Source: Pseudolabrys sp. (GTDB taxonomy: Bacteria; Pseudomonadota; Alphaproteobacteria; Rhizobiales; Xanthobacteraceae). Taken from it: a stretch of DNA of 32,187 nt. Both the position numbers and the translations under genes were made by a program. Of the stretch, positions 3,179-22,630 are shown one piece after another; the stretch's first letter is position 1, and every line of letters starts with the position of its first letter. The notes under the pieces were generated by a model. That model did not search any database. It was not told the origin of the DNA and saw only the letters and a list, made by a program, of their open reading frames with translations. Location of the stretch: NCBI GenBank assembly GCA_029255525.1, contig JANLJK010000319.1:1-32187 (forward strand). The letters are read 5' to 3'.

Positions 3179-3183
3179 TCCGG

Positions 3184-4005: not shown

Positions 4006-4219
4006 CAAGCTGGTCTATATGGCCAATCAGATCGGCAAATTCTTCGTCGCGCAGGGCGAGAGCGAAGCGCCGGCGGCGATCGCCGAGCACCTGAAGAAGT
4101 TCTGGGAGCCGCGCATGCTCACGGCGATCTTTGCGCATTTGCAAGCCGGCGGCGCCGGGCTCGACCCGGTGGTGCGCCAAGCTATCGAGAAACTGGCGGC
4201 CGATCACGCGGTCGTCTGA
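3992..4219 (+). CDS. fdsD: NAD-dependent formate dehydrogenase delta subunit
   Basis: 75 aa, overlaps 3' end of fdhD by 14 bp; MSSPDKLVYMANQIGKFFVAQGE... is typical of FdsD. Confidence 0.9.
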   Translation: MSSPDKLVYMANQIGKFFVAQGESEAPAAIAEHLKKFWEPRMLTAIFAHLQAGGAGLDPVVRQAIEKLAADHAVV

Positions 4220-4288: not shown

Positions 4289-5269
4289 TTACATCGGCTC
4301 GATGCCGGCCTTCCGGATGATGCCCTGCCACTTCACGGTTTCGGACGCGATGAACTTCTTCAGCTCATCGGGGCCGGGCGCGACCGGCTCGGCACCCTGC
4401 TCGATGAAGCGGGTGCTGACGGCCGGATCCTTCACCGCGTCGGCAAGCGCCTTGTAGAGCTTGTCGATGATCGGCTTTGGCGTGTTCGGCGGCGCCAGCA
4501 GCGCGAGCCAGCCGAAGGTCTCGTAGTCCTTGATGCCGGCTTCGGCTGCCGTCGGTACGTCGGGCAGCGCGGTCATGCGCTTGTTGCTGGTGACGGCCAG
4601 CGCGCGGGCATCACCGCTTTTGATCAGGCCTTGGACGTTCGGCAGGAACTGAAAGCCGAGCGGCACCTGGCCGGCGATGAAGTCGGGCGTGTAGCCGGCG
4701 ATGTTGCGATAGGGCACGTGGGTGAGCTGCGTACCGGTAACCTGCTCGAAATAGGCGCCGGCGAGGTGCTGCGATGAACCGACACCGACCGAGCCGTAAT
4801 TGAGCTCCTTCGGATGCGCCTTGGCATAGGCGACGAACTCGGTGAGCGTCTTTGGCGGTAGCTTGGAATTGATGACGATCACGTTCGGCAGGATCGCGAA
4901 CAGCGAGATCGGCGCGAAATCCTTTTGCGGGTCGTAGCCGAGCTCTTTGGACAGCGTCTTATTTGCCGCCAGCGGCCCGACGGTGCTCATCACCAAAGTA
5001 TAGCCGTCGGGCGTCGCACGCGCGCCCAGGGCGGTGCCGGTGTTGCCGCCGGCGCCGGGGCGGTTCTCGACCACGAAGGTCTGGCCCAGCGAGGTCGCCA
5101 TCTTGTTGAGCATGATGCGCGTGACGACGTCGCTGGCGCTGCCGGCGGCGAAGGGCACGAAGACCTGGATCGGCCGGGTCGGATAGTCCTGCGCCTGCGC
5201 AGCCGTGGCGCCGACGGTCGCGGCGGCGACGGCCAAAGCGGCCGACAGTCGCTTCACAGCCTTCATCAT
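4289..5269 (-). CDS. Tripartite tricarboxylate transporter (TctC/Bug family) substrate-binding protein
   Basis: Signal peptide; YPTRPIQVFVPFAAGSASDVVTRI...VVENRPGAGGNTGT...ATPDGYTL signature of Bug proteins. Confidence 0.93.
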   Translation of the reverse strand: MMKAVKRLSAALAVAAATVGATAAQAQDYPTRPIQVFVPFAAGSASDVVTRIMLNKMATSLGQTFVVENRPGAGGNTGTALGARATPDGYTLVMSTVGPLAANKTLSKELGYDPQKDFAPISLFAILPNVIVINSKLPPKTLTEFVAYAKAHPKELNYGSVGVGSSQHLAGAYFEQVTGTQLTHVPYRNIAGYTPDFIAGQVPLGFQFLPNVQGLIKSGDARALAVTSNKRMTALPDVPTAAEAGIKDYETFGWLALLAPPNTPKPIIDKLYKALADAVKDPAVSTRFIEQGAEPVAPGPDELKKFIASETVKWQGIIRKAGIEPM

Positions 5270-5313
5270 ATTACATCCTCCACGCGTTGTTCGATTCGAT
5301 CTATTGCTCAGTT

Positions 5314-6021
5314 CTAGAAAGCAATCGTTTCCATCAGCCTGTCGCAGTCCGTCTTGCTGCGCGCATCGCCACTGAGGACGATGCGGCCGCGTTCGATGAC
5401 GACGAAGCGGTCGCAGGCCGTCAGCGCTTGATGCACATTCTGTTCCACGAGCAAGATGGCGCAGCCCGCCTCCTTCATCTCGCGGATAATGGTGAACAAA
5501 TCGGCCACGATCATCGGCGCCAGGCCTTCGCTCGGCTCATCAATAAGCAGCAGCGTTGGTTTACCGATCATGACGCGCGCCATCGCCAGCATCTGCTGCT
5601 CGCCGCCCGATAATGTCGTGCCGTTCTGCTCGCGCCGCTCCATCAGGCGCGGGAAGCGCGCGTAGATGCGATCGAGCGCCTTGCGGTTGTCGGCCGAAGA
5701 CCGTCCCGGGACCTGTAGAAAGCCGAGCGTGAGGTTTTCCTCGACGCTGAGGCCGGGGAAGATGCGGCGGTCTTCCGGCACGAAGCCGATGCCGCGGCGG
5801 GCGACGCGGTCCGCGCTCTGGCCGTCGATGCGCTCGCCGTTGAAGACGATCTCGCCGCGCGCCGGCTTGATCCAGCCGGCAATGGCCTTCATCAGCGTCG
5901 ACTTGCCGACGCCGTTGCGGCCGAACACGCCGACCACCTCGCCGTTCTCGATCTTCAGGTCGATGCCCTGGATGATGTGGCTGGTGCCGTAATAAGTGTG
6001 GAGGTTGCGGATATCGAGCAT
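5314..6021 (-). CDS. livF: Branched-chain amino acid-type ABC transporter ATP-binding protein (LivF)
   Basis: Walker A GRNGVGKST, signature LSGGEQQMLAMARVM, Walker B LLLIDEPSEGLAP. Confidence 0.94.
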   Translation of the reverse strand: MLDIRNLHTYYGTSHIIQGIDLKIENGEVVGVFGRNGVGKSTLMKAIAGWIKPARGEIVFNGERIDGQSADRVARRGIGFVPEDRRIFPGLSVEENLTLGFLQVPGRSSADNRKALDRIYARFPRLMERREQNGTTLSGGEQQMLAMARVMIGKPTLLLIDEPSEGLAPMIVADLFTIIREMKEAGCAILLVEQNVHQALTACDRFVVIERGRIVLSGDARSKTDCDRLMETIAF

Positions 6022-6025
6022 AAGG

Positions 6026-6769
6026 TCACGCGTGCCCGAAATAGGCGGTCTGCACCGCCGGGTTGCCGCGCACTTCCGCCGGCGTGCCTTCGGCGAGCTT
6101 CTGGCCTTGATGCATGACGATCACGTGGTCCGACAGGCTCATGACCAATCCGATGTCGTGCTCGATCAAAAGGATTGTGACATCGCTCGACAGCGACTTG
6201 ATCAGTTTGGCGGTGTCTTCGGTGTCGCCGTGGCTCATGCCTTGCGTCGGCTCGTCGAGCAGCAGGACCTTGGGCTTGCAGGCGAGCGCTACCGCGACTT
6301 CAAGGCGGCGCTGCTCGCCATGCGACAGCTTGCCGACCGGGTAGGGCGCCTTGTCGGTGAGGCCGAAGCGTTCCAGCAATTCGTCGACGCGGGCGAGCGC
6401 CGTGCGGCTGGCTGCGACCGGACGCCAGGCCATCGCCATCGGCTCCAGGATCTGCGCGGCGAGGCGCAGGTTTTCCGCCACCGACAATTCGAAGAACAAA
6501 TTGGTGATCTGGAACGAGCGCGCCAAGCCAGCCGCCTGCAGGCGATGCGGGGGCTCGCCGGTGTGGTCGACGCCGTCGATCAGCACCTGGCCGGCGCGCG
6601 GACGCACCGCGCCCGAGATCAGATTGAACAAAGTCGACTTGCCGGCACCATTGGGGCCGATCACCGTGGTGATGCGATGACGCGCGATGGCGAAGCTGAC
6701 ATTGTCGACGGCGCGCAGGCCGCCGAAATGCACCGACAGGTCGCGGACCTCGAGGACGGAGGCGCTCAT
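6026..6769 (-). CDS. livG: Branched-chain amino acid-type ABC transporter ATP-binding protein (LivG)
   Basis: Walker A GPNGAGKST, LSHGEQRRLEVAVAL, Walker B VLLLDEPTQGMS. Confidence 0.94.
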   Translation of the reverse strand: MSASVLEVRDLSVHFGGLRAVDNVSFAIARHRITTVIGPNGAGKSTLFNLISGAVRPRAGQVLIDGVDHTGEPPHRLQAAGLARSFQITNLFFELSVAENLRLAAQILEPMAMAWRPVAASRTALARVDELLERFGLTDKAPYPVGKLSHGEQRRLEVAVALACKPKVLLLDEPTQGMSHGDTEDTAKLIKSLSSDVTILLIEHDIGLVMSLSDHVIVMHQGQKLAEGTPAEVRGNPAVQTAYFGHA

Positions 6770-7755
6770 GATTTCGCTCCCCGGTTCAGCCGGCGTTCGA
6801 TGACGGGCCGCACGATGCCCATCAGGCCGCGCGGCAGGAAGATGACCGCGCCCATGAACAACAGGCCGATGACGATGAGATGGTGCTCGGTGTAGCTGCC
6901 GACGACCGACTTGAACAAGGTCAGCAGGATGCTGCCGTAGAGCGCGCCGACCAATGTGCCGACGCCGCCGGTGACCACGGTGATCACGGCGTTGCCGGAC
7001 GTGGCGAAGAACAACAGCTCCGGCGAGACGAAGCCGCGCAGCATCGGATAAAGCGCGCCGGACAAAGCCGCGATCACGGCGGCGATGACATAGGCGGCGA
7101 GACGGGCGGTGACGGTGCGATAGCCGAGAAAGGGCACGCGCCGCTCATTGGCGCGCAGCGCGATCAGCAGCCGGCCGAACGGCGTGTCGAGCAGATAGGC
7201 CGCCAGGGCATAAAGGATAATGATGAAGGTGAGCACGACGAGGAAGAAGCCGACGGGCGACGCGCTCGAAATCTTGAACAGGCCGAGATTGATGTCGATC
7301 ACCGGCACGCCGATCAGTCCGTCCGACGCGCCCAGCGCGCGGGTATTGTAGACGACCTTGGCGATGACCTGCGCCATGCCGAAGGTGATAAGTGCGAAAT
7401 AAACGCCGCGCACGCGGTTGGCGATGAAGCCGCCGATCGTGCCGACGACGACGGCGCCGATCGCCGTCGCACCCATCGCCGCCCAGAACGACGGCGTCAC
7501 CATCAGCACCAGCGCCGAAAGATAGGCGCCGAGCCCGAAATAGAGCGCCTGGCCGAGCGACAGGAGGCCGGTATAGCCGAGCAGGATGTCGACCGAGAGC
7601 GCGAGCCCAGCGAAGATCAAGGCCTCGGTGCCGAGCCGCAGATAGAAAGTGTCGCCGCTTGCCGCGCCGAACGCGGCAAAGCCGAGAGAGGCCACGACCA
7701 GCACGGCGGCGAGCACATGGCTCGCCCGCATCGATCTCGTCAGCGCGTCAGCCAT
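6766..7755 (-). CDS. livM: Branched-chain amino acid-type ABC transporter permease (LivM)
   Basis: Multi-TM protein with LSLGQALYFGLGAYLSAL motif; 4-bp overlap with livG. Start at 7755 preferred over the upstream ATG at 7770. Confidence 0.92.
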   Translation of the reverse strand: MADALTRSMRASHVLAAVLVVASLGFAAFGAASGDTFYLRLGTEALIFAGLALSVDILLGYTGLLSLGQALYFGLGAYLSALVLMVTPSFWAAMGATAIGAVVVGTIGGFIANRVRGVYFALITFGMAQVIAKVVYNTRALGASDGLIGVPVIDINLGLFKISSASPVGFFLVVLTFIIILYALAAYLLDTPFGRLLIALRANERRVPFLGYRTVTARLAAYVIAAVIAALSGALYPMLRGFVSPELLFFATSGNAVITVVTGGVGTLVGALYGSILLTLFKSVVGSYTEHHLIVIGLLFMGAVIFLPRGLMGIVRPVIERRLNRGAKS

Positions 7756-8644
7756 GGCCGAGCCGTCCAAACAGGCCCTGCGGCCGTACCATCAGCATGA
7801 TCACCATGATCCCGAACACGATCGGGTCGGACCACACCGGCGAGATGTAGAGCGATGAGATGGCCTGCACTTGCGTGAGCAGAAGGCCGGCGACGACGAC
7901 ACCGGCGATCGAGCCCATGCCGCCGACGATGACGACGGTGAAAGCCATCAGGATGAAGTCGCGTCCCATGGTGGGGAACACGGAATAGATCGGCGCCAGC
8001 ATCACGCCGGCAAGCCCCGCGAGCGCCACACCGAAGGCAAAGGCGCCGGCATAGACGTGCTGCACCGGCACGCCGAGCGAAGCCGCCATGTGGCGGTCGA
8101 AGGCGGCGGCGCGCACCATGGCGCCCAGGCGTGTGCGGTAGACGACGAGTGCCACCAGCGCGACGACGGCGGCGCCGCCGAGAATGAGGAACAGCCGGTA
8201 GAGCGGCAGGAAGACACCGAACACGTCGATAGCGCCGGCGATCGGCACCGGCGGCTTCTGCGGATTGGGGCCGAAGACGAGCCGGAAGGCATCTTCCATC
8301 ACCAGCCCGAGGCCGAAGGTGAGCAACAGCGTCGTGACATGCCGCTCGCCGCTATGAAAGACGCGCTGGATCAAACCGCGCTCGACGATGTAGCCGACCG
8401 GCAGCATGATCAGCGGCACCAGCAGCAACAACAGCCAGAACGGCAGGCCGACGGAGGCCAGCGCCAGCGCAATGAAAGCACCGAGCGCGTAGAACTCACC
8501 GTGCGACATGTTGATGACGTCGAGCAGACCGAAAATGATGGTCAGGCCCAACGCCACCAGGATCACGGCCACGCCGAGCACGAGGCCGATGAGTATCTGC
8601 GGCGCCAGCACGAACTGGAAGTATTCGATTGCCGCAGTCATCAT
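7748..8644 (-). CDS. livH: Branched-chain amino acid-type ABC transporter permease (LivH)
   Basis: Multi-TM protein; LTIIFGLLDVINMSHGEFYALGA motif typical of LivH. Confidence 0.93.
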   Translation of the reverse strand: MMTAAIEYFQFVLAPQILIGLVLGVAVILVALGLTIIFGLLDVINMSHGEFYALGAFIALALASVGLPFWLLLLLVPLIMLPVGYIVERGLIQRVFHSGERHVTTLLLTFGLGLVMEDAFRLVFGPNPQKPPVPIAGAIDVFGVFLPLYRLFLILGGAAVVALVALVVYRTRLGAMVRAAAFDRHMAASLGVPVQHVYAGAFAFGVALAGLAGVMLAPIYSVFPTMGRDFILMAFTVVIVGGMGSIAGVVVAGLLLTQVQAISSLYISPVWSDPIVFGIMVIMLMVRPQGLFGRLGHG

Positions 8645-8699
8645 CGAGCCCCGTACGCGCGATCACGTTGCTTTGAGGTAGAATGCGTTGGCCCCACGC

Positions 8700-8790
8700 C
8701 CGCTCGTCCCCGCGAAAGCGGGGACCCAGGGCAGCATGCGCAAACCCCGGTGCTGTGGATTCCCGCTTGCGCGGGAATGAGCGGAGCAAG
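8700..8790. repeat. Paired palindromic (REP-like) element in the livH / binding-protein gap
   Basis: Two perfect hairpins: GTCCCCGC-GAAA-GCGGGGAC (8706-8725) and ATTCCCGC-TTGC-GCGGGAAT (8759-8778), flanked by cgctcgt...atgagcg. Confidence 0.8.
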
Positions 8791-8813
8791 GTGCGGGACC
8801 AAAGGCATTGTTT

Positions 8814-9992
8814 CTAGAACCGCGTGCAGGCGTCAGGACCAATCGCATCCGTACCCGCGACTTGCCCAACGATGCTAAACTTGCCGCCGGTGACGCGGAC
8901 GACGTACATGGTCTGCACCGCCTGATGGTCGCCGGCGCGGAGCGTCTTTTCGCCCTGCGGCGTCTGCCACTTCAGGTCGTTGAAGGCGGTGCGCACCTTG
9001 TCGGTCTCGGTCGACTTGGCCTTCTCGACCGCCGCCTTGTAGGCGTAGATCAGGCCGTACGAGTCGGCGCCGTAGAGGTCGGGGTCGATCTTGTTCGCCG
9101 CCTTGAAGGCCGCGACGAACTTCTTGTTTTCCGGCGTATCGATCTCGGCCGAATAGCCGACGCCGGTGACGAAGCCTTCCGCCGCCTTGCCGATGGCCGG
9201 CAGGTTCTGCGCCGTCACGGTGCCGGAGGCGCCGACAACTGTCAGGTTGTTGAGCAGGCCGAACTCCTGCATCTGCGTGAGCAGGCGCACGGTGTCGTTG
9301 CCGGCGACTGAGGTGTAGAGCACCTGCGGCTTGGCGGCGCGCATCTGGCCGAAATATTGCGTGTAGTCCTTGCTGTCGAGCGGGGCGAAAACCTCGCCGG
9401 TCGAGGCGGCGCCGACCTTCTCGGCGCTCGCCTTGAAGGCGGCGACGGTCGAACGGCCCATCTCATAGTCGGGACCGAGATAGAACACGTTGGCCTTCGG
9501 CTTCTCCTTCGACAGCCACACCGCGAGCGCCGCCGACTGCTGGCCCGCGCGCGCATTCACGCGGAAGACGTTTGGCGAGCACTTGTCGGCGGTGATCGAG
9601 TCGGCGAACGACACCGTGGTGGCGATCAGCTTGCCGGCGCGTTCGGCGACCTGGCCGACGGCGAGCGTCGAGCCGGAGTTCACGGTACCGGTGAGGAAGT
9701 CGACCTTGTTCACCTGGAACAGCTTGTCGGCCTTCTGCACGGCGACGGAGGGGTTGGCTTCCTCATCCTCGTAGATCAGCTCGACCGGCCGGCCCATGAT
9801 GCCGCCCGCCGCGTTCACTTCCTTGGTGGCGAGGTCGAGACCCCACCGCACCTGCTGGCCGATGCCGGCATAGGTGCCGGACAAAGGCGTTACGACGCCG
9901 ATCTTGATCGGATCGGCGGCTTGAACGCTTTGGGCACTGACCAGCGCGGTAGCCGACAGCAGCGCCGCCAGAATGGTCGTCTTGTAGGTCAT
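8814..9992 (-). CDS. ABC transporter substrate-binding protein (Leu/Ile/Val-binding family, periplasmic)
   Basis: Signal peptide; DPIKIGVVTPLSGTYAGIGQQVRWGLDLATKEVNAAGGIMGRPVELIYEDEEANP typical of the LivJ/K-like family. Confidence 0.93.
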   Translation of the reverse strand: MTYKTTILAALLSATALVSAQSVQAADPIKIGVVTPLSGTYAGIGQQVRWGLDLATKEVNAAGGIMGRPVELIYEDEEANPSVAVQKADKLFQVNKVDFLTGTVNSGSTLAVGQVAERAGKLIATTVSFADSITADKCSPNVFRVNARAGQQSAALAVWLSKEKPKANVFYLGPDYEMGRSTVAAFKASAEKVGAASTGEVFAPLDSKDYTQYFGQMRAAKPQVLYTSVAGNDTVRLLTQMQEFGLLNNLTVVGASGTVTAQNLPAIGKAAEGFVTGVGYSAEIDTPENKKFVAAFKAANKIDPDLYGADSYGLIYAYKAAVEKAKSTETDKVRTAFNDLKWQTPQGEKTLRAGDHQAVQTMYVVRVTGGKFSIVGQVAGTDAIGPDACTRF

Positions 9993-10044
9993 GTCATCCT
10001 CCCTTGGATATTTTTAATGTGACGGCCGGCGGCCGCCTTCGAAC

Positions 10045-10848
10045 TCAGCTTCCCTTGAACTTGGCCGGGCGCTTGCCGTGGAAGGCTTCGACGCCTTCCT
10101 TGAAGTCGTCGGACTGGCGCAGACGGCTGTAGCAGTGGCCTTCCAACTCGATGGCGATGGCGAGCGTGGAGTCCTCGGTGTCGTTGAGCAGCTTCTTGGC
10201 CGTGCGCTGGGCGATCGGCGAGAAGGTCAGAAGCTCGTCGACCAGCGCGTCGGTCGCGGCCTCCAGCTTGTCGTCCGGTACGCATTCGGTGGCGACGCCC
10301 CAGTCATAGGCCTGCTTGCCGGGGATGCGCTTGGAGCGCATCACGATGTCCTTGGTGCGGGTGATGCCGACCATCTTCTGCAGGCGCGCCGAGCCGCCGG
10401 AGCCGGGGATCTGGCCGAGCTTCTGCTCGGGCAGCGCGTAGAAACAGGTCTCCGACACGATGCGGAAATCGCAGGCGAGCGAGACTTCGAAGCCGACGCC
10501 GAAGCAATAGCCGCGGTTGGCGGCGATGACCGGCTTGGAGCAGCGGCTAGGGGCGGCGATGTTCCAGGCGAGCTTCGACACGTGCTCGGGCGAGGCTTCC
10601 ATGAAACCCTTGATGTTGCCGCCCGAGGAGAAGTGCTCGCCGACGGCGCGCAGCACGATCACGCGCACGCGCGTATCCTCGTCCAGGGCCTCGAACACCA
10701 GGCGGAGCTGGTCGCGCTGCGGCATCTCGATGACGTTCAGCGGCGGCCGGTTCAGGATGATATCGGCGCGCTGCTTGGCTTCGTTCAATTCGACCGAGAA
10801 GCCGTTGAGCGTCGCCAGACGCGGATCGGTGAAAGTCATGACGGTCAT
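10045..10848 (-). CDS. hmfE: Enoyl-CoA hydratase/isomerase family protein; predicted HmfE-like 2-oxoglutaroyl-CoA hydrolase
   Basis: Crotonase fold (GEHFSSGGNIKGF, ANRGYCFGVGFEVSLACDFRI, LPEQKLGQIPGSGGSARL); gene order Mo-hydroxylase / CoA ligase / crotonase as in furoate clusters. Confidence 0.72.
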   Translation of the reverse strand: MTVMTFTDPRLATLNGFSVELNEAKQRADIILNRPPLNVIEMPQRDQLRLVFEALDEDTRVRVIVLRAVGEHFSSGGNIKGFMEASPEHVSKLAWNIAAPSRCSKPVIAANRGYCFGVGFEVSLACDFRIVSETCFYALPEQKLGQIPGSGGSARLQKMVGITRTKDIVMRSKRIPGKQAYDWGVATECVPDDKLEAATDALVDELLTFSPIAQRTAKKLLNDTEDSTLAIAIELEGHCYSRLRQSDDFKEGVEAFHGKRPAKFKGS

Positions 10849-12395
10849 GCGGCAGTTCCTTGTGAACGTGATTTGTCCTCGGCCTCGAATTCGCCCGCGA
10901 CCAATTTGCGGCGCAGGAGCTTTCCGACCGGCGATTTGGGGATTTCGTTGACGAAAACGTACTGCCGCGGGCGTTTGAAGTTAGCGAGCCCGGAGGTGCG
11001 GCAGAACGCGTCGAGTTCTTGTTCGTCGACCGCGTTACGGCGCTTGATGAAGGCGGCGACGATCTTGCCCCAGCGCTCGTGCGGCAGGCCGACCACGGCC
11101 ACTTCCGACACGGCGGGATGCAGCGATAGGCAGCTTTCGATCTCGACCGGGGAGACGTTCTCGCCGCCTGTGATGATCATGTCATCGACGCGGCCGGTGA
11201 CGAACAAGTCGCCGTCCTTGTCGACATAGCCGGTGTCGCCGGTGAAGTACCAGCCGTCGCGCAGCGACTTGGCGTTGGCATCGGGCCGGCGCCAATAGCC
11301 TTCGAAGGCCTCGTCGCTGAGCAGCAGGGCGATGATCTCACCTTCCTCGCCCGTCGCGGCGAGATCGTTGGGATCGGCGGCATCCAGCTTCACCACGCGG
11401 ATGCGCTGGTTGATGCCGGCGCGACCGGCCGAGCCTGGCTTCTTCGGCGCGTGCTGGTCGATGGTGAAGGTGTAGATCTCGGACGAACCGTAGTGATTGA
11501 CGAACAGGTCCGGCTTAAAGACGGCGTCGAGCTCTTTCAGCAAGCCATCGGTCATCGAAGCGCCGGCAAAGCCGAGCTTGCGCACCGACGATACGTCGAC
11601 CTGGGTGAATAAGTGATTGTGGATGAGGTCATGATAGAGCGTCGGCACGAGATAGAGGTTGGTGACCTTCTCGGTCATGATTAGCGCTAAAGCCTGGCCG
11701 ACATCGAAGCGTGGCAGACAGACGAAGACTCCGCCGATCAGCGACATGGCGAGCATCGAGCGCACGCCCATCGTGTGATAGAGCGGCATGACGCCGAGCG
11801 TACGCTCAAAGCTGGCATATTGGTTCTGCGCCACATGGGCGATCGCCGCGGCGCGCTCGGCGCGCTGGCGGCGGGGCACACCCTTCGGCTTGGCGGTGGT
11901 GCCGGAGGTGTAGAGCATCACCGACCAGGCATCGGCGCCGACGCGCGGCACGGCCTTCGGCGCATCGCCTTGCGGCATCGTCGAGAAGGCGACTTCGTCG
12001 CCTTGCGCCGTGCCGAGTGCGATCCGAATGCGCGATTTGGCTTCGTGCGACTCGCGCACGGCCTCGGCCGAGACGTCCTCGAACACGATGGCTTTGGCTT
12101 CCGAGTTCTCGACGCAGTAGTCGATCTCGTCGGCCTTGGAGCGCCAGTTGACCGGCGTGATGACGACGCCTGCGAACTGGCAGGCCCAATGAATGGTGGC
12201 GGCTTCCCAGCGGTTCTGCAGCGCGGTGACGAGATGATCGCCCGGCATCAGGCCGAGTCTGTCGAAGGCCGCGACCACCTTCGATATGCGGGCGTACCAT
12301 TGCGCATAGGTCAGGCGCACCGCGCCGTCGACGATGGCGAGCGCATCGGGATCGCGCTCGACGCTGGAGAGAAAGCTGTTGCCCAGATCAAGCAT
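10845..12395 (-). CDS. hmfD: Acyl-CoA synthetase (AMP-binding); predicted 2-furoate-CoA ligase
   Basis: AMP-binding motif MLYTSGTTAKPKGVPRRQ, GWYFTGDTGYVDKDGDLFVTGRVDDMIITGGENVSPVEIE, C-terminal KSPVGKLLRRKL. Start MLDLGNSF at 12395 chosen. Confidence 0.75.
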   Translation of the reverse strand: MLDLGNSFLSSVERDPDALAIVDGAVRLTYAQWYARISKVVAAFDRLGLMPGDHLVTALQNRWEAATIHWACQFAGVVITPVNWRSKADEIDYCVENSEAKAIVFEDVSAEAVRESHEAKSRIRIALGTAQGDEVAFSTMPQGDAPKAVPRVGADAWSVMLYTSGTTAKPKGVPRRQRAERAAAIAHVAQNQYASFERTLGVMPLYHTMGVRSMLAMSLIGGVFVCLPRFDVGQALALIMTEKVTNLYLVPTLYHDLIHNHLFTQVDVSSVRKLGFAGASMTDGLLKELDAVFKPDLFVNHYGSSEIYTFTIDQHAPKKPGSAGRAGINQRIRVVKLDAADPNDLAATGEEGEIIALLLSDEAFEGYWRRPDANAKSLRDGWYFTGDTGYVDKDGDLFVTGRVDDMIITGGENVSPVEIESCLSLHPAVSEVAVVGLPHERWGKIVAAFIKRRNAVDEQELDAFCRTSGLANFKRPRQYVFVNEIPKSPVGKLLRRKLVAGEFEAEDKSRSQGTAA

Positions 12396-12897
12396 CGGTT
12401 GGGGCCTCCCGCAGTCTTTTTGCCGCATCCATGGCCGCGGCCAGGATCGGGACATAGCCGGTGCAACGGCACAGATGACCGCCGAGGAAATCGCGGAGAT
12501 CGTCCTCTGACGGGTCAGGCTTCCGGCGGAAATAGTTGTCGAGCGACATCAGAATGCCGGCGGTGCAGAAGCCGCACTGCAAGGCATGATGACGGCGGAA
12601 GGCTTCCTGCAACACCGAGAGCCGGCCGGGCTCGGGCGCGAGGCCTTCGACGGTGCGGATATTCGCGCCATCAATTTGCACTGCAAGCGTGAGGCAGGCG
12701 CGTGCGGTCGCGCCGTCGATCTCGATGGTACACGCGCCGCAGACGCCGTGTTCGCAACCGACATGCGTGCCGGTTGCGCCCAGCTCATGGCGCAGGAAAT
12801 CGGTGAGCAGCATGCGCGGTTCGGCCTGCGCCTCCACAGCGCGGCCGTTAAGCGTGAAACGGATGGTGTGGCGCGCGTCGGCGCTCAGGCGCGGCAT
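12388..12897 (-). CDS. hmfC: Xanthine dehydrogenase-family 2Fe-2S small subunit; predicted 2-furoyl-CoA dehydrogenase iron-sulfur subunit
   Basis: GCEHGVCGACTIEIDG and CGFCTAGILMSL...GHLCRCTGY double 2Fe-2S motifs. Confidence 0.78.
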   Translation of the reverse strand: MPRLSADARHTIRFTLNGRAVEAQAEPRMLLTDFLRHELGATGTHVGCEHGVCGACTIEIDGATARACLTLAVQIDGANIRTVEGLAPEPGRLSVLQEAFRRHHALQCGFCTAGILMSLDNYFRRKPDPSEDDLRDFLGGHLCRCTGYVPILAAAMDAAKRLREAPTDA

Positions 12898-13712
12898 TTG
12901 CGGGCCTCCTCGATGGTGGCAAGGCCCATCTGGCGCACCAGTTCGCGGCGATAGCGCGCGGTGGCGTGCAGGTCGTCGCGGGCGTCCAATTCCCAGGCGA
13001 AGGCGTCGAGCGCGTCGGTGAGCGCCGTGCCGTCGAGTGCGGGCCAGTCGCGCAAGGTCGGCTTGTCGGCGACGCCGCCGACGGCAAGGCGGATGGACTT
13101 GTCGGTTGCCACGGCGGCGCAGGCGACGATGGCGAAGTCGCCATGGCGGCGGCCGAATTCCTGGAAGGCATAACCGGTGCAGGCTTGGCTTTTCGGGATC
13201 AGCACGGCCTCGATCAGTTCATTGTCGGCGCGTGTCGTCGACATCATGCCGGTGAAGAATTCGTTCGCCGCGACGCGGCGCTTGCCGCGGCGGGTCGACA
13301 GTTCGACGGCACCATCGAGCGCCAGAAGCGACAGCGGAATCTCCGCGCTCGGATCGGCATGCGCAACGGAGCCGCAGACGGTGCCGCGGCTGCGGGTCTG
13401 CGCATGGCCGACCCAGGGCAAAGCGGCCTTCAAGAGCGGCAGGCTGTCGCGCAGATCCGGCCAGGCCATCAACTCGGCCTGTCTCACCGCCGCGCCGATG
13501 CGGATATCGTTGCCGCTCGCTTCGATCTTGCGCAATGCGGGGAGGTGCATGATGTCGATCAGCACTTTGGGTCGCACCAGCCGCATCGACAGCATCGGCA
13601 TCAGCGTCTGTCCGCCGGCGATGACGCGGGCGTCCTTGCCGCATTCGGCGAGCGCGGTATGTGCCTCGGCGATGTCGCCGGCGCGGATGTAATCGAAACG
13701 GGCGGGCTTCAT
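12885..13712 (-). CDS. hmfB: Xanthine dehydrogenase-family FAD-binding medium subunit; predicted 2-furoyl-CoA dehydrogenase FAD subunit
   Basis: CoxM-like: AGGQTLMPMLSMRLVRPKVLIDI, RSRGTVCGSVAHADPSAEIP. Confidence 0.78.
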   Translation of the reverse strand: MKPARFDYIRAGDIAEAHTALAECGKDARVIAGGQTLMPMLSMRLVRPKVLIDIMHLPALRKIEASGNDIRIGAAVRQAELMAWPDLRDSLPLLKAALPWVGHAQTRSRGTVCGSVAHADPSAEIPLSLLALDGAVELSTRRGKRRVAANEFFTGMMSTTRADNELIEAVLIPKSQACTGYAFQEFGRRHGDFAIVACAAVATDKSIRLAVGGVADKPTLRDWPALDGTALTDALDAFAWELDARDDLHATARYRRELVRQMGLATIEEARKCRA

Positions 13713-16654
13713 GCGCCCCTCCCGAACAGGCGGGCGAACAAGCCGGGTTTCGCGCCGCCGGTGTGGCGCACCAAAGCCGCAAAGAACTGCTTGATGACGA
13801 CTTTCGCCGCGCCGTCGAGCAGGCGGCCGCCGATGGAGGCGACCTTGCCGCCGATCTCGGCATCGTAATCGTAGGTGACCTGCGTGCCGCCTTCGACCGG
13901 CGTCAGCTTGATGCGGCCGGCGCCGCGGGCGTCACCCAGCGCGCCATTGACGACACCGGTGAGCGTCACCGCGCGCGGCGCGTCGAGGTCGGACAGCTTG
14001 ATGTCGGCTTTGTAGCGACCGGTGACCGGACCGACGCCGAGCGTGACCTCGGCGCGGAAATGCGTGTCGGCGACCTTCTCGACGCCATGGGCGCCGGGGA
14101 TGATCGCTTCCAGCGTCTTCGGATCGAGCAGCATGCGCCACACGGTCTCGGGCGGCACGTTGACGCGCGCTTCGCCGCTGCCGCGCAGCGCGCGGCCTTT
14201 GCCGGCGAGCGGCGCAGTCGCTTGCGCTTTCGGCGGCGCGCGCTCGGCGTCGTGAATGTGCGCGGCGATCTTGGCCGGCGTCAGCGGCAGGTCGATCGAG
14301 TCGATGTTGAGCGCATCGGCCACCGCATTGGCGAGGCACACCGGCGTCGACATGCAGTTGCCTTCGCCGACGCCCTTGGTGCCGAGCGGGGTAAACGGCG
14401 ACGGCGTTTCGACATGCAAAATCACCGGCTCCGGCACTTCCATCGTCGTCGGCACGAGATAATCGGCGAAGGTGCCGGTGAGGAAGCTGCCGTCCTCGCC
14501 GTAAGCGTATTCTTCGTACATCGCGGCGCCGACGGCATGCGCGAAGCCGCCGGTGACCTGACCCGCCACCATGCCGGGGTGCAGGATTCGCCCGCAATCA
14601 TGCATCGTGACGTATTTGTCGATGCGGATGGCGCCGGTGACGCGGTCGATGTCGATGCCGCAGAAGTCGAAGATGAAGCCGTGGCAGAGCGAGGAATTGA
14701 CCTCGTCGCCTTCGGTCGGCGGGGTCAATTCGGGCGGCGACCAGAAGGCGGTCTCGCGCAGCGCCTGGTTCTCTTCCGGCACAAGGCCGGGCGACCAATG
14801 GCTGGTGGCGGCGAGGCGCGAGAACGGCACCGCGTTGTCGGGATTGCCGCGCGCGCGGACTTTGCCGGCGGCGAATTCGATGTCGTCGGGACCGACATTG
14901 AGCTGTGCCGCCGCCATCCTGGCGAGCTTGGCCTTGATCTTGTCGGTAGCGAGCTTGGCAGCGCCGCCGACCGCCGCGGCGAAACGGCTGGAGTAATTGC
15001 CTGACGCGATCGACCAGGCGTCGCGCGCCGAATCGAAGTCGGTAACGACTCGGATGTCGGCCGGCTTGAGGCCCAGTTCATCGGCGACGATCTGCGAGAG
15101 CACCGTGCGGTGACCCTGGCCTTGCGGCACCGAGGAGACGTGCACCGACACGCTGCCGAGCGGATCGAGAGAGATGGTCGCGGTCGCCTGCGCGCCGTTT
15201 TTCGGCCCGGCCTTGCGGCGCTCTTCCGGCGTCAGCGCGGTGGTGATGTAGCCCATGTTGGAGACGCTGGGCTCGACCGCGGCGACGACGCCGATGCCGT
15301 AGAGGCGGCCTTCGGCGCGGGCTTTTTGCTGGCGCTCACGCAGTTCGGCGAACTGGCCATCGGCGAGCGCGGCCTCGAAGGCTTTCATGTAGTCGCCCGA
15401 ATCGAGCAACGCGCCGGTGGCGGTGCGATAGGGGAAGGCGCCGGAGGGAATGAGATTGCGGCGGATGACGTCGACCGGATCGAGCGCGAGCTCGACCGCG
15501 ATGCGCTGCATCAAGCGTTCGAGCGCGTAATAGACCTGCGGGCCGCCGAAGCCGCGGTTCAGACCGGTCGGCGTCTTGTTGGTGAGCACGACGCGGTTGC
15601 GCACCGAGACGTTGCGGATGTCGTAGGCGCCGGTGAGGTTGCCGTGCATGCGGTAGAGCGTCGCCGGCTCGGGGGCGCGGATGTGCGCGCCGACGTCTTC
15701 CAACTGGTCCCAGGCCAGCGCGCGCACGCGGCCGTCGGCGTCGACGGCGGCTTCCAAGGTCGTGACGCGGTTGGTGGCCGACACGGACGCGGCGAGATGT
15801 TCGAGACGATCCTCGATCCACTTGACGGGACGTCCCGTGGCGCGCGCGGCGACGCCCATCAGCACGATGTAGGGGAACACGCCCTGCTTGACGCCGAAGC
15901 TGCCGCCGGAATCGGGCGGCGTGCGCAAACGGAAGCGGTTGCCGGGCACTTTCAGTGCCCGGGCCATCACCGCGTGCAGGCTGAACGGACCCATGAAGTT
16001 GGCGAGCACGTCATAGGCGTCCTCGGCGGCGTCGTATTCGGCGACGAGGCCGTAGGTCTCCATCGGCGTGCAGGAATTGCGCGGATAGCGGATGGTTACC
16101 GACACGCGGCGGGCCGCGCTGGCGAAGGCGTGCTCGGGATCGCCGTAGCGGAACGCGCGTTCGCTGGCGAGATTCGATTTGAGGCCGTCGTGCAGCACCG
16201 GCTGCGCCGGGTCGAGCGTCTGCTCCGGATCGACCACGGCGGCGAGCGGTTCGTAATCGACCTCGATCAGGTCGATCGCGTCTTCGGCGACGTAGCGGCT
16301 CGCGGCGACGACCACGGCCACCGGTTCGCCGACATAGCGCACGCGATCGACGGCGATCGGCCAGCATTCGATGGGCGCTTTCACGCCGACGACGAGGCTG
16401 GCCGAGAGCCTGGTGACGTCGGGGCCGGTGAGCACGGCGGCGACGCCCGGCAGTTTGCGCGCGTCATCGGCGCGAATGGCGGCGATGCGCGCATGCGCGT
16501 GCGGCGAACGCAAAATGGCGGCGAAGAGCGTGCCCGGCTTGACGCCGAGATCGTCGATGAATCGTCCGCGCCCGGTCAAAAGCGCGGCGTCTTCGACGCG
16601 CTCGACCGATTGGCCACACCACTGGGTGGGATTGACGGACATAACCTTGGGCAT
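13709..16654 (-). CDS. hmfA: Xanthine dehydrogenase-family molybdopterin large subunit with C-terminal CoxG/SRPBCC-like domain; predicted 2-furoyl-CoA dehydrogenase large subunit
   Basis: 981 aa; TPPDSGGSFGVKQG, NRGFGGPQ, GQGHRTVLSQIVADELG, GVGEGNCMSTP motifs; last ~165 aa (GSGEARVNVPPETVWRMLLDPKTLEAIIPGAHGVEKV...) resemble CoxG/SRPBCC. Confidence 0.8.
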   Translation of the reverse strand: MPKVMSVNPTQWCGQSVERVEDAALLTGRGRFIDDLGVKPGTLFAAILRSPHAHARIAAIRADDARKLPGVAAVLTGPDVTRLSASLVVGVKAPIECWPIAVDRVRYVGEPVAVVVAASRYVAEDAIDLIEVDYEPLAAVVDPEQTLDPAQPVLHDGLKSNLASERAFRYGDPEHAFASAARRVSVTIRYPRNSCTPMETYGLVAEYDAAEDAYDVLANFMGPFSLHAVMARALKVPGNRFRLRTPPDSGGSFGVKQGVFPYIVLMGVAARATGRPVKWIEDRLEHLAASVSATNRVTTLEAAVDADGRVRALAWDQLEDVGAHIRAPEPATLYRMHGNLTGAYDIRNVSVRNRVVLTNKTPTGLNRGFGGPQVYYALERLMQRIAVELALDPVDVIRRNLIPSGAFPYRTATGALLDSGDYMKAFEAALADGQFAELRERQQKARAEGRLYGIGVVAAVEPSVSNMGYITTALTPEERRKAGPKNGAQATATISLDPLGSVSVHVSSVPQGQGHRTVLSQIVADELGLKPADIRVVTDFDSARDAWSIASGNYSSRFAAAVGGAAKLATDKIKAKLARMAAAQLNVGPDDIEFAAGKVRARGNPDNAVPFSRLAATSHWSPGLVPEENQALRETAFWSPPELTPPTEGDEVNSSLCHGFIFDFCGIDIDRVTGAIRIDKYVTMHDCGRILHPGMVAGQVTGGFAHAVGAAMYEEYAYGEDGSFLTGTFADYLVPTTMEVPEPVILHVETPSPFTPLGTKGVGEGNCMSTPVCLANAVADALNIDSIDLPLTPAKIAAHIHDAERAPPKAQATAPLAGKGRALRGSGEARVNVPPETVWRMLLDPKTLEAIIPGAHGVEKVADTHFRAEVTLGVGPVTGRYKADIKLSDLDAPRAVTLTGVVNGALGDARGAGRIKLTPVEGGTQVTYDYDAEIGGKVASIGGRLLDGAAKVVIKQFFAALVRHTGGAKPGLFARLFGRGA

Positions 16655-16767
16655 CCCTGCGGCGCGCTCTTACGAGGGGCGTATTCGCGGGAACGCTGTC
16701 ACGGTCCGGCAGACCGGGCGATGCCGTCGCGTCTCATCACTTACCGAAGAGTCTCATTTCGAGATCT

Positions 16768-16836
16768 AGAGCGTTTTCGAGCGAAGTGGAAACCGGTTCG
16801 CGTGAAGAAAACGCGTCAAAACAAAAAGCTAGAGCC
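16768..16836. repeat. Short intergenic repeat of Rhizobiales type (ctagagcgttttcgagcgaagtggaaaccggttcgcgtgaagaaaacgcgtcaaaacaaaaagctagagc)
   Basis: ctagagc direct ends, inverted gcgttttc/gaaaacgc arms; recognised as a widespread Rhizobiales intergenic sequence. Confidence 0.65.
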
Positions 16837-16838
16837 CC

Positions 16839-16859
16839 GGCTTTGATTCTATCAAAGCC
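16839..16859 (-). terminator. Hairpin downstream of the AraC-family gene
   Basis: Perfect 8-bp stem GGCTTTGA-TTCTA-TCAAAGCC starting 9 nt past the araC-family stop (minus strand). Confidence 0.45.
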
Positions 16860-16868
16860 AGAAAGGCC

Positions 16869-17729
16869 CTAGGCGCCGATCGGCGAGCCCATGCGCGCGA
16901 CCTGGCGGAATTCGCTCGGCGTTACGCCGGCGTGGTCGCGGAAAAAGCGCGTGAAGTGCCCCGGCGCGCTGAAGCCGAGCGTGTCGCTCACCGCGGCGAG
17001 GCTGTTGTCGGTATGCACGACCGATTTTACCGCCAATTCCATGCGCAACAGATTGAGATAGACATGCGGCGTCATGCGGGTGGAACGCTCGAACAGCCGG
17101 TAGAAATGCGCCCGCGACAGGCCGGCCTCTTTCGCCAGCGAATCGACGTCGTGCGCGGCCTGCGGCGCGATGCGTATAAGGTTCACTGCGCGGCGGATGC
17201 GCCAGTCGAAGCGATCGCGGTTGCGGTCGACATCCGCCAGCCGGCGCGCCACGGTCCGCCACGGCGTGAATCGCTCGATCACCGAGATCATCAGGTCCGA
17301 CAGCAATTGTTCCTGTTCGGTGCCGGCGCCAGGATCGGCCAGCATGATCGTTGCAAGATCCATCGACAGGCGGCGGATGCGCGGCGAAACCTCACCCGCG
17401 GGCTTCTCGAAGAAGCCGGAGGCGCCGCTCGCGGCCCAATTCGGCCGGAAGGTCTTGAGCCAATCGGGCTCGATATAGAGCGCCAGAATGATGGTGCGCG
17501 GCCGCTCTTTATAATGAACGTAAGCGTGCGGCTCCCAGGCGTTGATCAGGACGGCCTGCTGATCCGTGAGCTGCACGAGATTGTCGCCGACGGCGAACTG
17601 CGTATCGGCGCCGTCCGCCTTGATCAGTACATGGCAATGCGGATGCGCGTGACGCACCAGCGAGCGGTCCATGTCGAGCAAAGCGACACGGCCGAAGGCT
17701 CCATGCATGATGCGTAGCGCGTTCGACAT
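16869..17729 (-). CDS. AraC-family transcriptional regulator (N-terminal cupin-like domain)
   Basis: C-terminal double HTH: DVDSLAKEAGLSRAHFYRLFERSTRMTPHVYLNLLRMELAVKSVVHTDNSLAAVSDTLGFSAPGHFTRFFRDHAGVTPSEFR. Start at MSNALRIM. Confidence 0.93.
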   Translation of the reverse strand: MSNALRIMHGAFGRVALLDMDRSLVRHAHPHCHVLIKADGADTQFAVGDNLVQLTDQQAVLINAWEPHAYVHYKERPRTIILALYIEPDWLKTFRPNWAASGASGFFEKPAGEVSPRIRRLSMDLATIMLADPGAGTEQEQLLSDLMISVIERFTPWRTVARRLADVDRNRDRFDWRIRRAVNLIRIAPQAAHDVDSLAKEAGLSRAHFYRLFERSTRMTPHVYLNLLRMELAVKSVVHTDNSLAAVSDTLGFSAPGHFTRFFRDHAGVTPSEFRQVARMGSPIGA

Positions 17730-17845
17730 GAAATTCTCGTTGCACCCGGCGGGGTGCCATCCGCAATTCAACGCGTATGCGTGCTTAATTAGCGCATCGC
17801 GTAGGCGACGAATAGTCCCTATTTCTCAAGGGTTTTTGATGGCCG

Positions 17846-18379
17846 TCAGGCAAGGTAGCCGATTGCGGCTGCAATCAATAAGGGTGCCGGCGGAATTTCG
17901 GAGCCAGCGGTCGCGTTGCGCTGCACAAAAAGAGCGACATTGGCTGGCACCGCCGTTGCCGCTTCGGCTTGCTTGCCTGCTCCACCCAAGAGCGATGGTG
18001 CAAGATTAAAGAGAAGGGCTTGCTCAACCTGTTCCGCGCGCAATTCGGCGGCGGCGATCTCCTTGCGTAGCTCCTTGACGGTATCGTCGGCCATCTCAGG
18101 GACGGACTTCATCGTCTGGCGGACCGCGCGCAACGGCCGCACCACGGTTTCATGCCAGCGGCGCACCTGGCCCTCAATGGTTGCGAGCGCCAAATCGTCG
18201 AGCGCGATGTTCCTTTCCGCACCGAGCCATGCGCAGAACAGAAGCACATTCACGTCGATGTTCAATGCGCTCTGCAGCGCGAGACATTCCGCGGCAACAC
18301 CGGGTTGCGCATAAACCGCTAGAGAAAATTTCCAAAACGGATTATCGCATCGAAGCACGGCGTTTCCTTGCGCGGGCAA
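17846..18379 (-). CDS. TIGR02444 (DUF2390) family protein
   Basis: 177 aa; N-terminal NPFWKFSLAVYAQPGVAAECLALQSALNIDVNVLLFCAWLG characteristic of the family. Confidence 0.75.
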   Translation of the reverse strand: MPAQGNAVLRCDNPFWKFSLAVYAQPGVAAECLALQSALNIDVNVLLFCAWLGAERNIALDDLALATIEGQVRRWHETVVRPLRAVRQTMKSVPEMADDTVKELRKEIAAAELRAEQVEQALLFNLAPSLLGGAGKQAEAATAVPANVALFVQRNATAGSEIPPAPLLIAAAIGYLA

Positions 18380-18432
18380 TTGCGTACGAAACGTTTACCA
18401 TCGTTCTCCCTTGTCGGGATAGGACCTTCGCC

Positions 18433-19860
18433 ATGGCCAATACTTCATCCGCTGCCAAAACCGCGCCGACCAATCGCCCGCAGCCGATCACCACATTGCG
18501 CGCCTGGCTCGATCATCTCGCCGCGCGTGATCGGCTGGCGGTCATCAAGCCCGGCACGGCGCTGAAGTTCGAACTGGCGGGGATCGCCAATCGCTTCGAT
18601 GGCCGGAAGGCGACATTGTTCCCGCGTCCCGACAATCATCCGATGCCGGTGTTGTCGGGGCTCACGTCCGACCGCCAATGGATGGCGGAAGCCATGGGCG
18701 TGGAACCGTCCGAGTTGCTGGCGCGCTTTCAGGACGCCGCGCTCAATCCGCTGCCCTGGAAAGAAGTCGAAAGCGCACCCGTGCAGCAGGTCGTGCATCG
18801 CGACGTCGATCTCACCAAGCAACTACCGATTCCGGTGCATAACGAGCACGACAACGGCGCCTATATCACCGCCGGGCTGATGATCGCGCGCAACCCCAAG
18901 ACCGGCGTGCAGAATGTGTCGATCCACCGCTTGCAGGTGAGTGGGCCGAATAGGCTCGGCGCGCTGCTGTTGCCGCGCCACACTTATACGTTCTTCGATA
19001 TGGCTGAGCGCGCCGGCCAGCCGCTCGATGTCGCCATCGTCGTCGGTGTCGATCCTTTAACCTTGCTTGCGTCGCAAGCCATCGCGCCGATCGACTTCGA
19101 CGAGCTCACCATCGCCGGTGCGCTGCACGGTGCGCCGCTGCCGGTGGTGAAATGCATTTCCAACGAGGTGCGCGTGCCGGCCGAGGCCGAGATCGTGATT
19201 GAGGGCCGCCTGCTGCCCAATGTGCGCGAGATGGAAGGCCCGTTCGGCGAATTCCCGCAATATTACGGCGAGCCGGCCAAGCGTCACGTTATCGAGGTGA
19301 CCGCACTGACGCACCGGAAGGACGCCATGTTCCATACCATCGTCGGCGGCGGGCTCGAACACTTGTTGCTCGGCGGCATTCCGCGCGAGGCGACCTTGCT
19401 GGCGCATCTCCGCCGCAGCTTCCCGAATGTTCGCGACGTCCATCTCGCCCGCGGCGGCGTCTGCCGTTATCATCTCTATGTGCAGATCGACAAACGTCAG
19501 GAAGGCGAGGCGAAGAACATCATGATGGGGGCCTTCGCCGGCCACTACGACATCAAGCACGTCGTCGTCGTTGATGAGGACGTCGACATTCATGATCCGA
19601 CGGAAGTCGAGTGGGCGGTGGCGACGCGCTTCCAGGCCGACCGCGATCTCATTGTCATTCCGGAAAGTCAGGGTTCCAAGCTCGATCCGTCGACGCGCAA
19701 CGGCGTCGGCGCGAAGATGGGCATGGATGCGACCAAGCCGCTCGATGCCGAGGAGATGAAATTCAAGCGCATCCGCGTGCCCGGCGAGGAAGAGATCGAT
19801 CTCGACCGCGTCGTCGGCAAGGAGTCGAGCGCCAAATGGCGCGACGCGGTGGGTGGTTAG
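18433..19860 (+). CDS. hmfF: UbiD-family decarboxylase; predicted HmfF-like 2,5-furandicarboxylate decarboxylase
   Basis: 475 aa from ATG 18433; UbiD signatures (VHRDVDLTKQLPIPVHNEHDNGAYITAGLMIARNP, EGPFGEFPQYYG, GIPREATLL, SQGSKLDPS); located between hmfA-E-like genes and a UbiX gene. Confidence 0.78.
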   Translation: MANTSSAAKTAPTNRPQPITTLRAWLDHLAARDRLAVIKPGTALKFELAGIANRFDGRKATLFPRPDNHPMPVLSGLTSDRQWMAEAMGVEPSELLARFQDAALNPLPWKEVESAPVQQVVHRDVDLTKQLPIPVHNEHDNGAYITAGLMIARNPKTGVQNVSIHRLQVSGPNRLGALLLPRHTYTFFDMAERAGQPLDVAIVVGVDPLTLLASQAIAPIDFDELTIAGALHGAPLPVVKCISNEVRVPAEAEIVIEGRLLPNVREMEGPFGEFPQYYGEPAKRHVIEVTALTHRKDAMFHTIVGGGLEHLLLGGIPREATLLAHLRRSFPNVRDVHLARGGVCRYHLYVQIDKRQEGEAKNIMMGAFAGHYDIKHVVVVDEDVDIHDPTEVEWAVATRFQADRDLIVIPESQGSKLDPSTRNGVGAKMGMDATKPLDAEEMKFKRIRVPGEEEIDLDRVVGKESSAKWRDAVGG

Positions 19861-19864
19861 GCCC

Positions 19865-20022
19865 GTCACCCTGAGGTGCTCGGCGCGCACCGATCTCGGA
19901 TTTACCCGAGATCGGCATCTTAGAGCACAAGTCGGCTAGAGCCGACTTGTGCTGCCGAGCCTCGAAGGGTCTGTGCCCGTCATCCTTCGAGGCTCGCTTC
20001 GCTCGCACCTCAGGATGACGGA
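19865..20022. repeat. Composite palindromic intergenic repeat between convergent ubiD and ubiX genes
   Basis: Hairpins cgatctcgg-atttac-ccgagatcg (19891-19914) and agcacaagtcggct-ag-agccgacttgtgct (19924-19953), and imperfect gtcatccttcgaggctcgc...gcacctcaggatgac (19979-20020). Confidence 0.8.
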
Positions 20023-20043
20023 TCAAGCTACGCGTAAGAAAAG

Positions 20044-20706
20044 TTACCGAGTTGAAGGCTCCTTCGCCCTCTTCTTCAACCCACCCCAGCGCCGCACGGT
20101 GCCGAGGTTAATGTCGAACAGGTCGAGGACGCGGCCGAGCGTATGGTCGACCATGTCTTCGAGCGATTGCGGCTTCGTGTAGAAGGCCGGCACCGGCGGA
20201 TAGACGATGGCGCCGGCTTCGGTCACCGCCGCCATGCTGCGGATATGGCCCAAGTGCAAGGGCGTCTCGCGCAGCATCAGCACGACCCGGCGGCGCTCCT
20301 TCATCGCGACATCGGCGGCGCGTGAAATGAGGTTGGCGGTCACGCCGGTTGCGATCTCGGCCATCGTCTTGATCGAGCAGGGTGCGATGACCATGCCGAG
20401 GTTCTGGAACGAGCCTGAGGAGCAGGCGGCACCGACATCCTGGTTCGGATGGACGATGTCGGCGAGCGCTTCGACATCGGATAGCTTGAAATCGGTCTCG
20501 CTCGCGATGGTCATCTGCGCCGCGCGCGAGATAATGAGGTGCGTCTCGATGTCGGTGTCTTTCAGAAGTTCCAGCAGGCGAATGCCGTAGATCGCACCGG
20601 AGGCGCCGCTGATGCCGACAATCAGCCGCTTAGCTGGATCGTTCGACGACTTCTTCGATTTGGTCTTTTGCAGCACCGTCGCTCCGTTCGATGATTGTCC
20701 GGCCAA
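20044..20706 (-). CDS. ubiX: UbiX-family flavin prenyltransferase (HmfG-like)
   Basis: RLIVGISGASGAIYGIRLLELLK, MVIAPCSIKTMAEIATG, RRVVLMLRETPLHLGHIRSM, PPVPAFYTKPQSLEDMVDHTLGRVLDLF. Confidence 0.92.
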   Translation of the reverse strand: MAGQSSNGATVLQKTKSKKSSNDPAKRLIVGISGASGAIYGIRLLELLKDTDIETHLIISRAAQMTIASETDFKLSDVEALADIVHPNQDVGAACSSGSFQNLGMVIAPCSIKTMAEIATGVTANLISRAADVAMKERRRVVLMLRETPLHLGHIRSMAAVTEAGAIVYPPVPAFYTKPQSLEDMVDHTLGRVLDLFDINLGTVRRWGGLKKRAKEPSTR

Positions 20707-22625: not shown

Positions 22626-22630
22626 GCCTC

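Follow-up and report, generated by a model that had tools for sequence, protein, structure and literature searches.

The question raised by contig JANLJK010000319.1 of Pseudolabrys sp. (assembly GCA_029255525.1; 32,187 nucleotides, analyzed whole and referred to here as the window) is what a cluster of genes at positions 4289 to 20706, encoding a molybdenum hydroxylase, a coenzyme A (CoA) ligase, a crotonase-family enzyme, and UbiD and UbiX proteins, allows its host to degrade. The window (C319) is one whole contig of a 4.2-Mb, 456-contig genome that is 85% complete and whose named close relatives are Pseudolabrys. In Cupriavidus basilensis HMF14, hmfABCDE together with hmfFG convert 2,5-furandicarboxylic acid (FDCA) to furoate, then to furoyl-CoA and 2-oxoglutarate, and a preliminary description of the window assigned the locus to the catabolism of such furan carboxylates. 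By analogy with characterized systems, the locus is very probably an hmf set with which a Pseudolabrys-like bacterium grows on furan acids, and the original assignment is well supported by the close match of its UbiD protein to an FDCA decarboxylase with a key His and Arg retained, by the hmfABCDE gene order, and by sequence identities of 50–81% with known clusters.

The UbiD-family protein encoded by hmfF (18424–19860, plus strand) matches the FDCA decarboxylase of Pelotomaculum thermopropionicum (PtHmfF, 6H6V) over its full length with an E value of 1e-142 in a search of the PDB, the next kinds of enzyme being indole-3-carboxylate decarboxylase (1e-65) and protocatechuate/ubiquinone-type decarboxylases (∼1e-53). 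Compared by sequence, it differs from PtHmfF in sequence divergence only; H296 and R304 of PtHmfF (6h6v chain numbering) are conserved as H313 and R321, and R304 is an important active-site arginine. The histidine, numbered H297 in PMC7976604 (H296 in the 6h6v chain), sets the furan specificity of HmfF. As the preliminary description stated, the UbiD gene and a UbiX gene adjoin hmfABCDE, the latter being hmfG (20044–20706, minus strand), whose product scores 241 bits against a cut-off of 109 with the flavin prenyltransferase model TIGR00421.

The three-subunit molybdenum hydroxylase, CoA ligase, and crotonase form a contiguous minus-strand run (16654 down to 10045) in which the families and overlaps of 4–13 bp are as originally claimed: hmfA (13709–16654), the molybdenum subunit with a fused C-terminal CoxG domain (MoCoBD_1, MoCoBD_2, Ald_Xan_dh_C, and COXG matches, and position in a tree); hmfB (12885–13712), the 275-residue flavin adenine dinucleotide (FAD) subunit (PF00941, PF03450); hmfC (12388–12897), the 2Fe-2S subunit of a putative furoyl-CoA dehydrogenase (Fer2, Fer2_2, and comparison with relatives' loci); hmfD (10845 to about 12395), the predicted AMP-binding 2-furoate-CoA ligase (PF00501; 63–66% identical to Burkholderiales HmfD); and hmfE (10045–10848), a crotonase-family hydratase/hydrolase (PF00378; 76–81% identical to proteins of Burkholderiales hmf clusters). 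By coordinates, the overlaps are 4 bp for hmfA/B, 13 bp for hmfB/C, 8 bp for hmfC/D with the hmfD start at 12395, and 4 bp for hmfD/E. The seven window proteins share 50–81% identity with their counterparts in Burkholderiales hmf clusters containing HmfH-type and HmfT-type genes as well, and the window has both the A-B-C-D-E unit and the HmfF-type UbiD with its UbiX partner that characterize an hmf furan-acid catabolic cluster. Complete hmfABCDE is present in 77 of the 80 best-scoring HmfA loci in a set of species genomes, a non-random sample in which gene presence was judged within ∼10 kb on each side; the grouping is therefore far from chance.

In the pathway proposed from characterized relatives, FDCA and/or 2-furoate would be imported, most likely by the transporter LivKHMGF described below, and HmfF, with prenylated flavin mononucleotide (FMN) from HmfG, would remove one carboxyl group from FDCA to give 2-furoate. 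HmfD would convert 2-furoate to 2-furoyl-CoA, HmfABC would hydroxylate the furoyl-CoA ring at C5, and HmfE would finish ring opening and/or thioester hydrolysis to yield 2-oxoglutarate. The AraC-family protein encoded upstream of hmfA (16869–17735, minus strand; HTH_18, E 2e-22), a counterpart of which is present in 67 of the 77 complete loci, probably activates hmfABCDE-livKHMGF-tctC. In Pseudomonas umsongensis GO16, an AraC protein is listed as the lower-pathway regulator, and deletion of hmfF abolishes growth on 5-hydroxymethylfurfural (HMF) and FDCA but not growth on furoate (PMC12064950).

Several points weigh against this assignment. C. basilensis HMF14 was compared only through the clusters of Cupriavidus necator and Burkholderia and not through its own sequences. 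If the C. basilensis enzymes are taken as the standard, the locus is complete, as originally described, but two products listed for strain GO16, the putative ring-opening hydrolase (hyd) and the XdhC-type maturation protein (psfD; PMC12064950), are absent from the window, neither having been sought in the rest of the genome. Furthermore, the solved enzymes nearest to HmfD are aryl-CoA ligases, namely 4-chlorobenzoate-CoA ligases, and the specificity of HmfD is therefore not settled by its sequence. Since ligase and molybdenum hydroxylase specificity cannot be read from sequence, the lower-pathway enzymes might act, instead of on 2-furoate, on a related heteroaromatic acid such as a substituted furan carboxylate or the carboxylate of a pyrrole or thiophene; this is the alternative that survives best, but it is unlikely given that all five proteins are 50–81% identical to Burkholderiales hmf proteins and that an HmfF-type UbiD accompanies 36 of the 77 complete loci.

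It is considerably less probable that the molybdenum enzyme is a 4-hydroxybenzoyl-CoA reductase, a nicotinate or xanthine dehydrogenase, or a CO dehydrogenase and that the locus serves another pathway. These enzymes share a protein family with HmfABC, and the best NCBIfam matches are indeed to CO dehydrogenase, glyceraldehyde dehydrogenase, and 4-hydroxybenzoyl-CoA reductase models, but all fall far below the curated cut-offs: the reductase α, β, and γ models give 388, 63, and 159 bits against 994, 405, and 258, respectively, and for CO dehydrogenase the scores are 480 bits against 950 and, with aerobic CoxL, 450 bits against 991. The molybdenum subunit is likewise far short of the xanthine dehydrogenase cut-off. 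HmfB, at 275 residues, is shorter than the 321-position reductase β model. The active-site loop of CO dehydrogenase is of the AYRCSFR type, whereas that of HmfA, read directly from the alignment, is GLNRGFGGPQ. The glutamate of the GxGE motif of hydroxylases is Glu764 in the window HmfA and is invariant in all eight aligned HmfA sequences, and the C-terminal CoxG domain is common to the aligned HmfA of Alpha- and Betaproteobacteria, so that the domain fusion, like the operon order, is that of HmfA. On these cut-offs and motifs, the 4-hydroxybenzoyl-CoA reductase, CO dehydrogenase, and xanthine/nicotinate dehydrogenase identities were rejected. The weakest alternative, that UbiD and UbiX serve some other decarboxylation, for example in ubiquinone synthesis, and stand beside hmf by chance, might draw on five near relatives (G034, G033, G027, G010, and G029) whose hmfABCDE-liv block lacks hmfF, but it has very little to commend it against the gap in scores (1e-142 compared with 1e-52), on which a ubiquinone-synthesis UbiD was rejected, and the occurrence of hmfF near hmfABCDE in distant genera.

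If the locus is an hmf set, the compounds that enter it can be considered from its transport genes and from what accompanies them. Directly downstream of hmfE, and absent or unstated in the preliminary description, is a run of genes for an ATP-binding cassette (ABC) transporter, all on the minus strand: livK (8814–9992; PF13458, E 1e-85), livH (7748–8644), livM (6766–7770, with a likely start at 7755), livG (6026–6769), and livF (5314–6021), identified as permeases (LivH and LivM) and ATPases (LivG and LivF) from their translations and from the loci of relatives, in which livK and livF are likewise retained downstream of hmfE. The run ends with tctC (4289–5269, minus strand; PF03401, E 4e-69), an orphan periplasmic binding protein of the TctC type with relatives in G001 (81%, at the equivalent position), G002 (73%, beside hmfF), and Bosea (47%, after livF). 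LivK, the candidate furan-acid binder, is similar to ABC-type binding proteins of known structure in the branched-chain amino acid class; from gene position and conservation, furan acids are most likely taken up by LivKHMGF. The intergenic gaps from hmfE through tctC are short (at most ∼170 bp) and, together with the overlaps within hmfABCDE, suggest that hmfABCDE-livKHMGF-tctC (16654 down to 4289) is likely a single transcription unit of about this extent; a promoter and terminator scan gave signals no greater than in shuffled sequence.

The absence of hmfH and hmfT from the window, as stated originally, was confirmed, there being no HmfH-like or HmfT-like match on C319. In a search of the whole genome (85% complete), the best HmfH-type glucose-methanol-choline (GMC) oxidoreductase is 45% identical to C. 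necator HmfH and is encoded on another contig (C296:16238–17935) among ABC-transporter, crotonase, CoA-ligase, and acyl-CoA dehydrogenase-like open reading frames (ORFs); it was not taken as HmfH because its neighbors are not hmf genes. PsfA-type aldehyde dehydrogenases and HmfT-type proteins of the major facilitator superfamily (MFS) reach at most 33% identity in the same genome and include no ortholog, PsfG not having been sought. The locus is thus not the full HMF/furfural version of the cluster (HmfH or PsfA with HmfT), and aldehydes are probably not entry compounds, with the reservation that the genome is 85% complete; the earlier suggestion that furan acids are taken up directly from outside is plausible because no upper-pathway ortholog was found.

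The preliminary description regarded the arrangement as new, a view that does not hold, since AraC-hmfABCDE-livKHMGF is found in many alphaproteobacteria, with hmfF and hmfG nearby in some. Within the genus, about nine Pseudolabrys-type genomes retain the block, with ∼72–95% identity for each protein; hmfF is near the block in G008, G016, G001, and G002 and, in G013, lies beside the block start at a contig end. A cultured relative, Pseudolabrys sp. Root1462, has the lower pathway only. G001 and G016 carry, next to hmfF, another UbiD paralog (L030:4–450; L031:4885–6204) that is 36–37% identical to HmfF. The 77 complete loci include 13 with a Liv ABC transporter, 19 with BenE, and 32 with an HmfT-type MFS transporter. 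In a FastTree phylogeny of 97 HmfA sequences, with changes counted among labeled rows, these three transporter types require 8 changes and hmfF requires 16, the latter an upper bound inflated by contig edges; the window HmfA falls in a fully supported clade of seven rows, all with Liv, among which it alone has hmfF. The hmf enzyme core is stable, and the uptake system and FDCA module are exchanged around it; the layout in the window is therefore one of several already in databases. Nor does any tRNA, shift in GC content, or long flanking repeat mark an insertion, and the word “island” is descriptive only.

The cluster type of C. basilensis HMF14, represented by C. necator NH9 pENH92 and a Burkholderia aenigmatica plasmid, shares with the window the seven enzymes, the A-B-C-D-E order, the CoxG-fused HmfA, and the association of hmfF with hmfG, but the window has AraC in place of LysR beside hmfA, Liv in place of the MFS transporter HmfT, no HmfH oxidase, hmfG on the strand opposite to hmfF, and an additional gene of the DUF2390/TIGR02444 family. 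The hmf loci on plasmids of Bosea vestrisii (NZ_CP126308) and Dinoroseobacter shibae (pDSHI01) share AraC-hmfABCDE-livKHMGF with UbiD, UbiX, and TIGR02444 genes nearby and, in Bosea, tctC; unlike the window, both also hold genes for an aldehyde dehydrogenase and a LysR protein. Hydrolysis of 2-oxoglutaryl-CoA is usually ascribed to HmfE; Bosea has, between hmfE and livK, a PaaI-type thioesterase (L047:26682–27158) that is a candidate for this step. In Bosea, the annotation splits hmfA into two overlapping ORFs (L047:20040–22965), suggesting a frameshift. P. umsongensis GO16 shares hmfABCDE, hmfF, the UbiX-type psfC, and the lower-pathway AraC regulator and has in addition psfG/psfA, hmfT, hmfI, hyd, and psfD (PMC12064950). 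The catabolic locus can therefore be assigned soundly to an established kind of cluster, and its transporter variant is already common among sequenced genomes. As a probable route for FDCA/furoate breakdown in a Pseudolabrys-like host, it is by itself of modest interest, but a constant hmf core with interchangeable uptake systems (ABC, BenE, and MFS) and FDCA module helps in choosing transporters and decarboxylases for bioplastic-monomer work.

The sole new lead concerns the DUF2390/TIGR02444 gene (17846–18379, minus strand, start codon provisional), which was overlooked in the preliminary description and lies between the AraC gene and hmfF. Its product belongs to PF09523 (E 9e-31; 106.8 bits against a cut-off of 25) and TIGR02444 (103.1 against 48.3). 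Of the 80 HmfA loci, 11 contain a DUF2390 gene, always together with hmfG (for example, L113, L129, L136, L156, L180, L181, and L186); the host genera include Methylobacterium, Xanthobacter, Roseomonas, and Bradyrhizobium. The best hmfG orthologs of G008 (79%) and G011 (86%) are far from hmfF and directly adjoin a DUF2390 gene, and in G009, G015, and G032, DUF2390 copies stand next to UbiX paired with a UbiD other than HmfF. G024 carries a full-length and a shortened DUF2390 ORF (L042:407–1366 and 2142–2438) adjoining an hmfG ortholog (81%), with a divergent HmfF (50%) encoded nearby.

Across 241 alphaproteobacterial genomes, DUF2390 and UbiX occur together in 82, DUF2390 alone in one (a fragment at a contig end), UbiX alone in 28, and neither in 130, a co-occurrence with a Fisher p value of ∼1e-38 that ignores shared ancestry. 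A ubiX gene lies within 1 kb of 31 of the 84 alphaproteobacterial DUF2390 hits, 26 of these being convergent, across 22 families. UbiD genes in these genomes are mostly located elsewhere; the tie of DUF2390 is therefore to UbiX. One genus of the same order has adjacent DUF2390 and ubiX genes in two genomes (133 and 140 bp apart) and lacks both in five sisters. Outside the Alphaproteobacteria, UbiX is present in 27 of 30 genomes with DUF2390, but none of 15 same-contig pairs is within 5 kb, and the link is therefore shown for Alphaproteobacteria only.

From these associations, we regard it as an even proposition that, in Alphaproteobacteria, DUF2390 is a dedicated partner of UbiX that aids the supply of prenylated FMN to UbiD-type decarboxylases in furan and other pathways. 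Its predicted structure (predicted local distance difference test score, 94) is nearly all helical and, in a fold search of the PDB, had no match at E 0.001 (best 0.33, template modeling score 0.34), so that the fold yields no function; a sequence-profile search of the PDB also gave nothing significant. The conserved residues include Y13, Q26, R74, R77, K81, E102, and E106, of which the Arg/Arg/Lys and Glu residues of the predicted helical fold would suit phosphate binding. Some UbiX enzymes use dimethylallyl phosphate as the donor and others the diphosphate (PMC6541611), and, as a guess at specific chemistry, DUF2390 might give UbiX dimethylallyl phosphate or might hold or pass on the cofactor. 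DUF2390 is barely mentioned in the open literature searched, and a report elsewhere is possible. If functional, the link would identify a missing component of prenylated-FMN supply. Caulobacter vibrioides, which has both DUF2390 and UbiX, is one of the tractable alphaproteobacteria in which it can be tested directly.

The genes flanking the locus are unrelated to it. On the left is a complete gene for a formate dehydrogenase α subunit (302–3178; TIGR01591, 949 bits), followed by ORFs at 3109–4005 and 3765–4094 that may be accessory genes. On the right are genes for trypsin-like proteases and a Tad pilus, among them an unusual tandem of three successive ORFs (22541–25729) that read as trypsin-like serine proteases, two of which have the GDSGGP motif.

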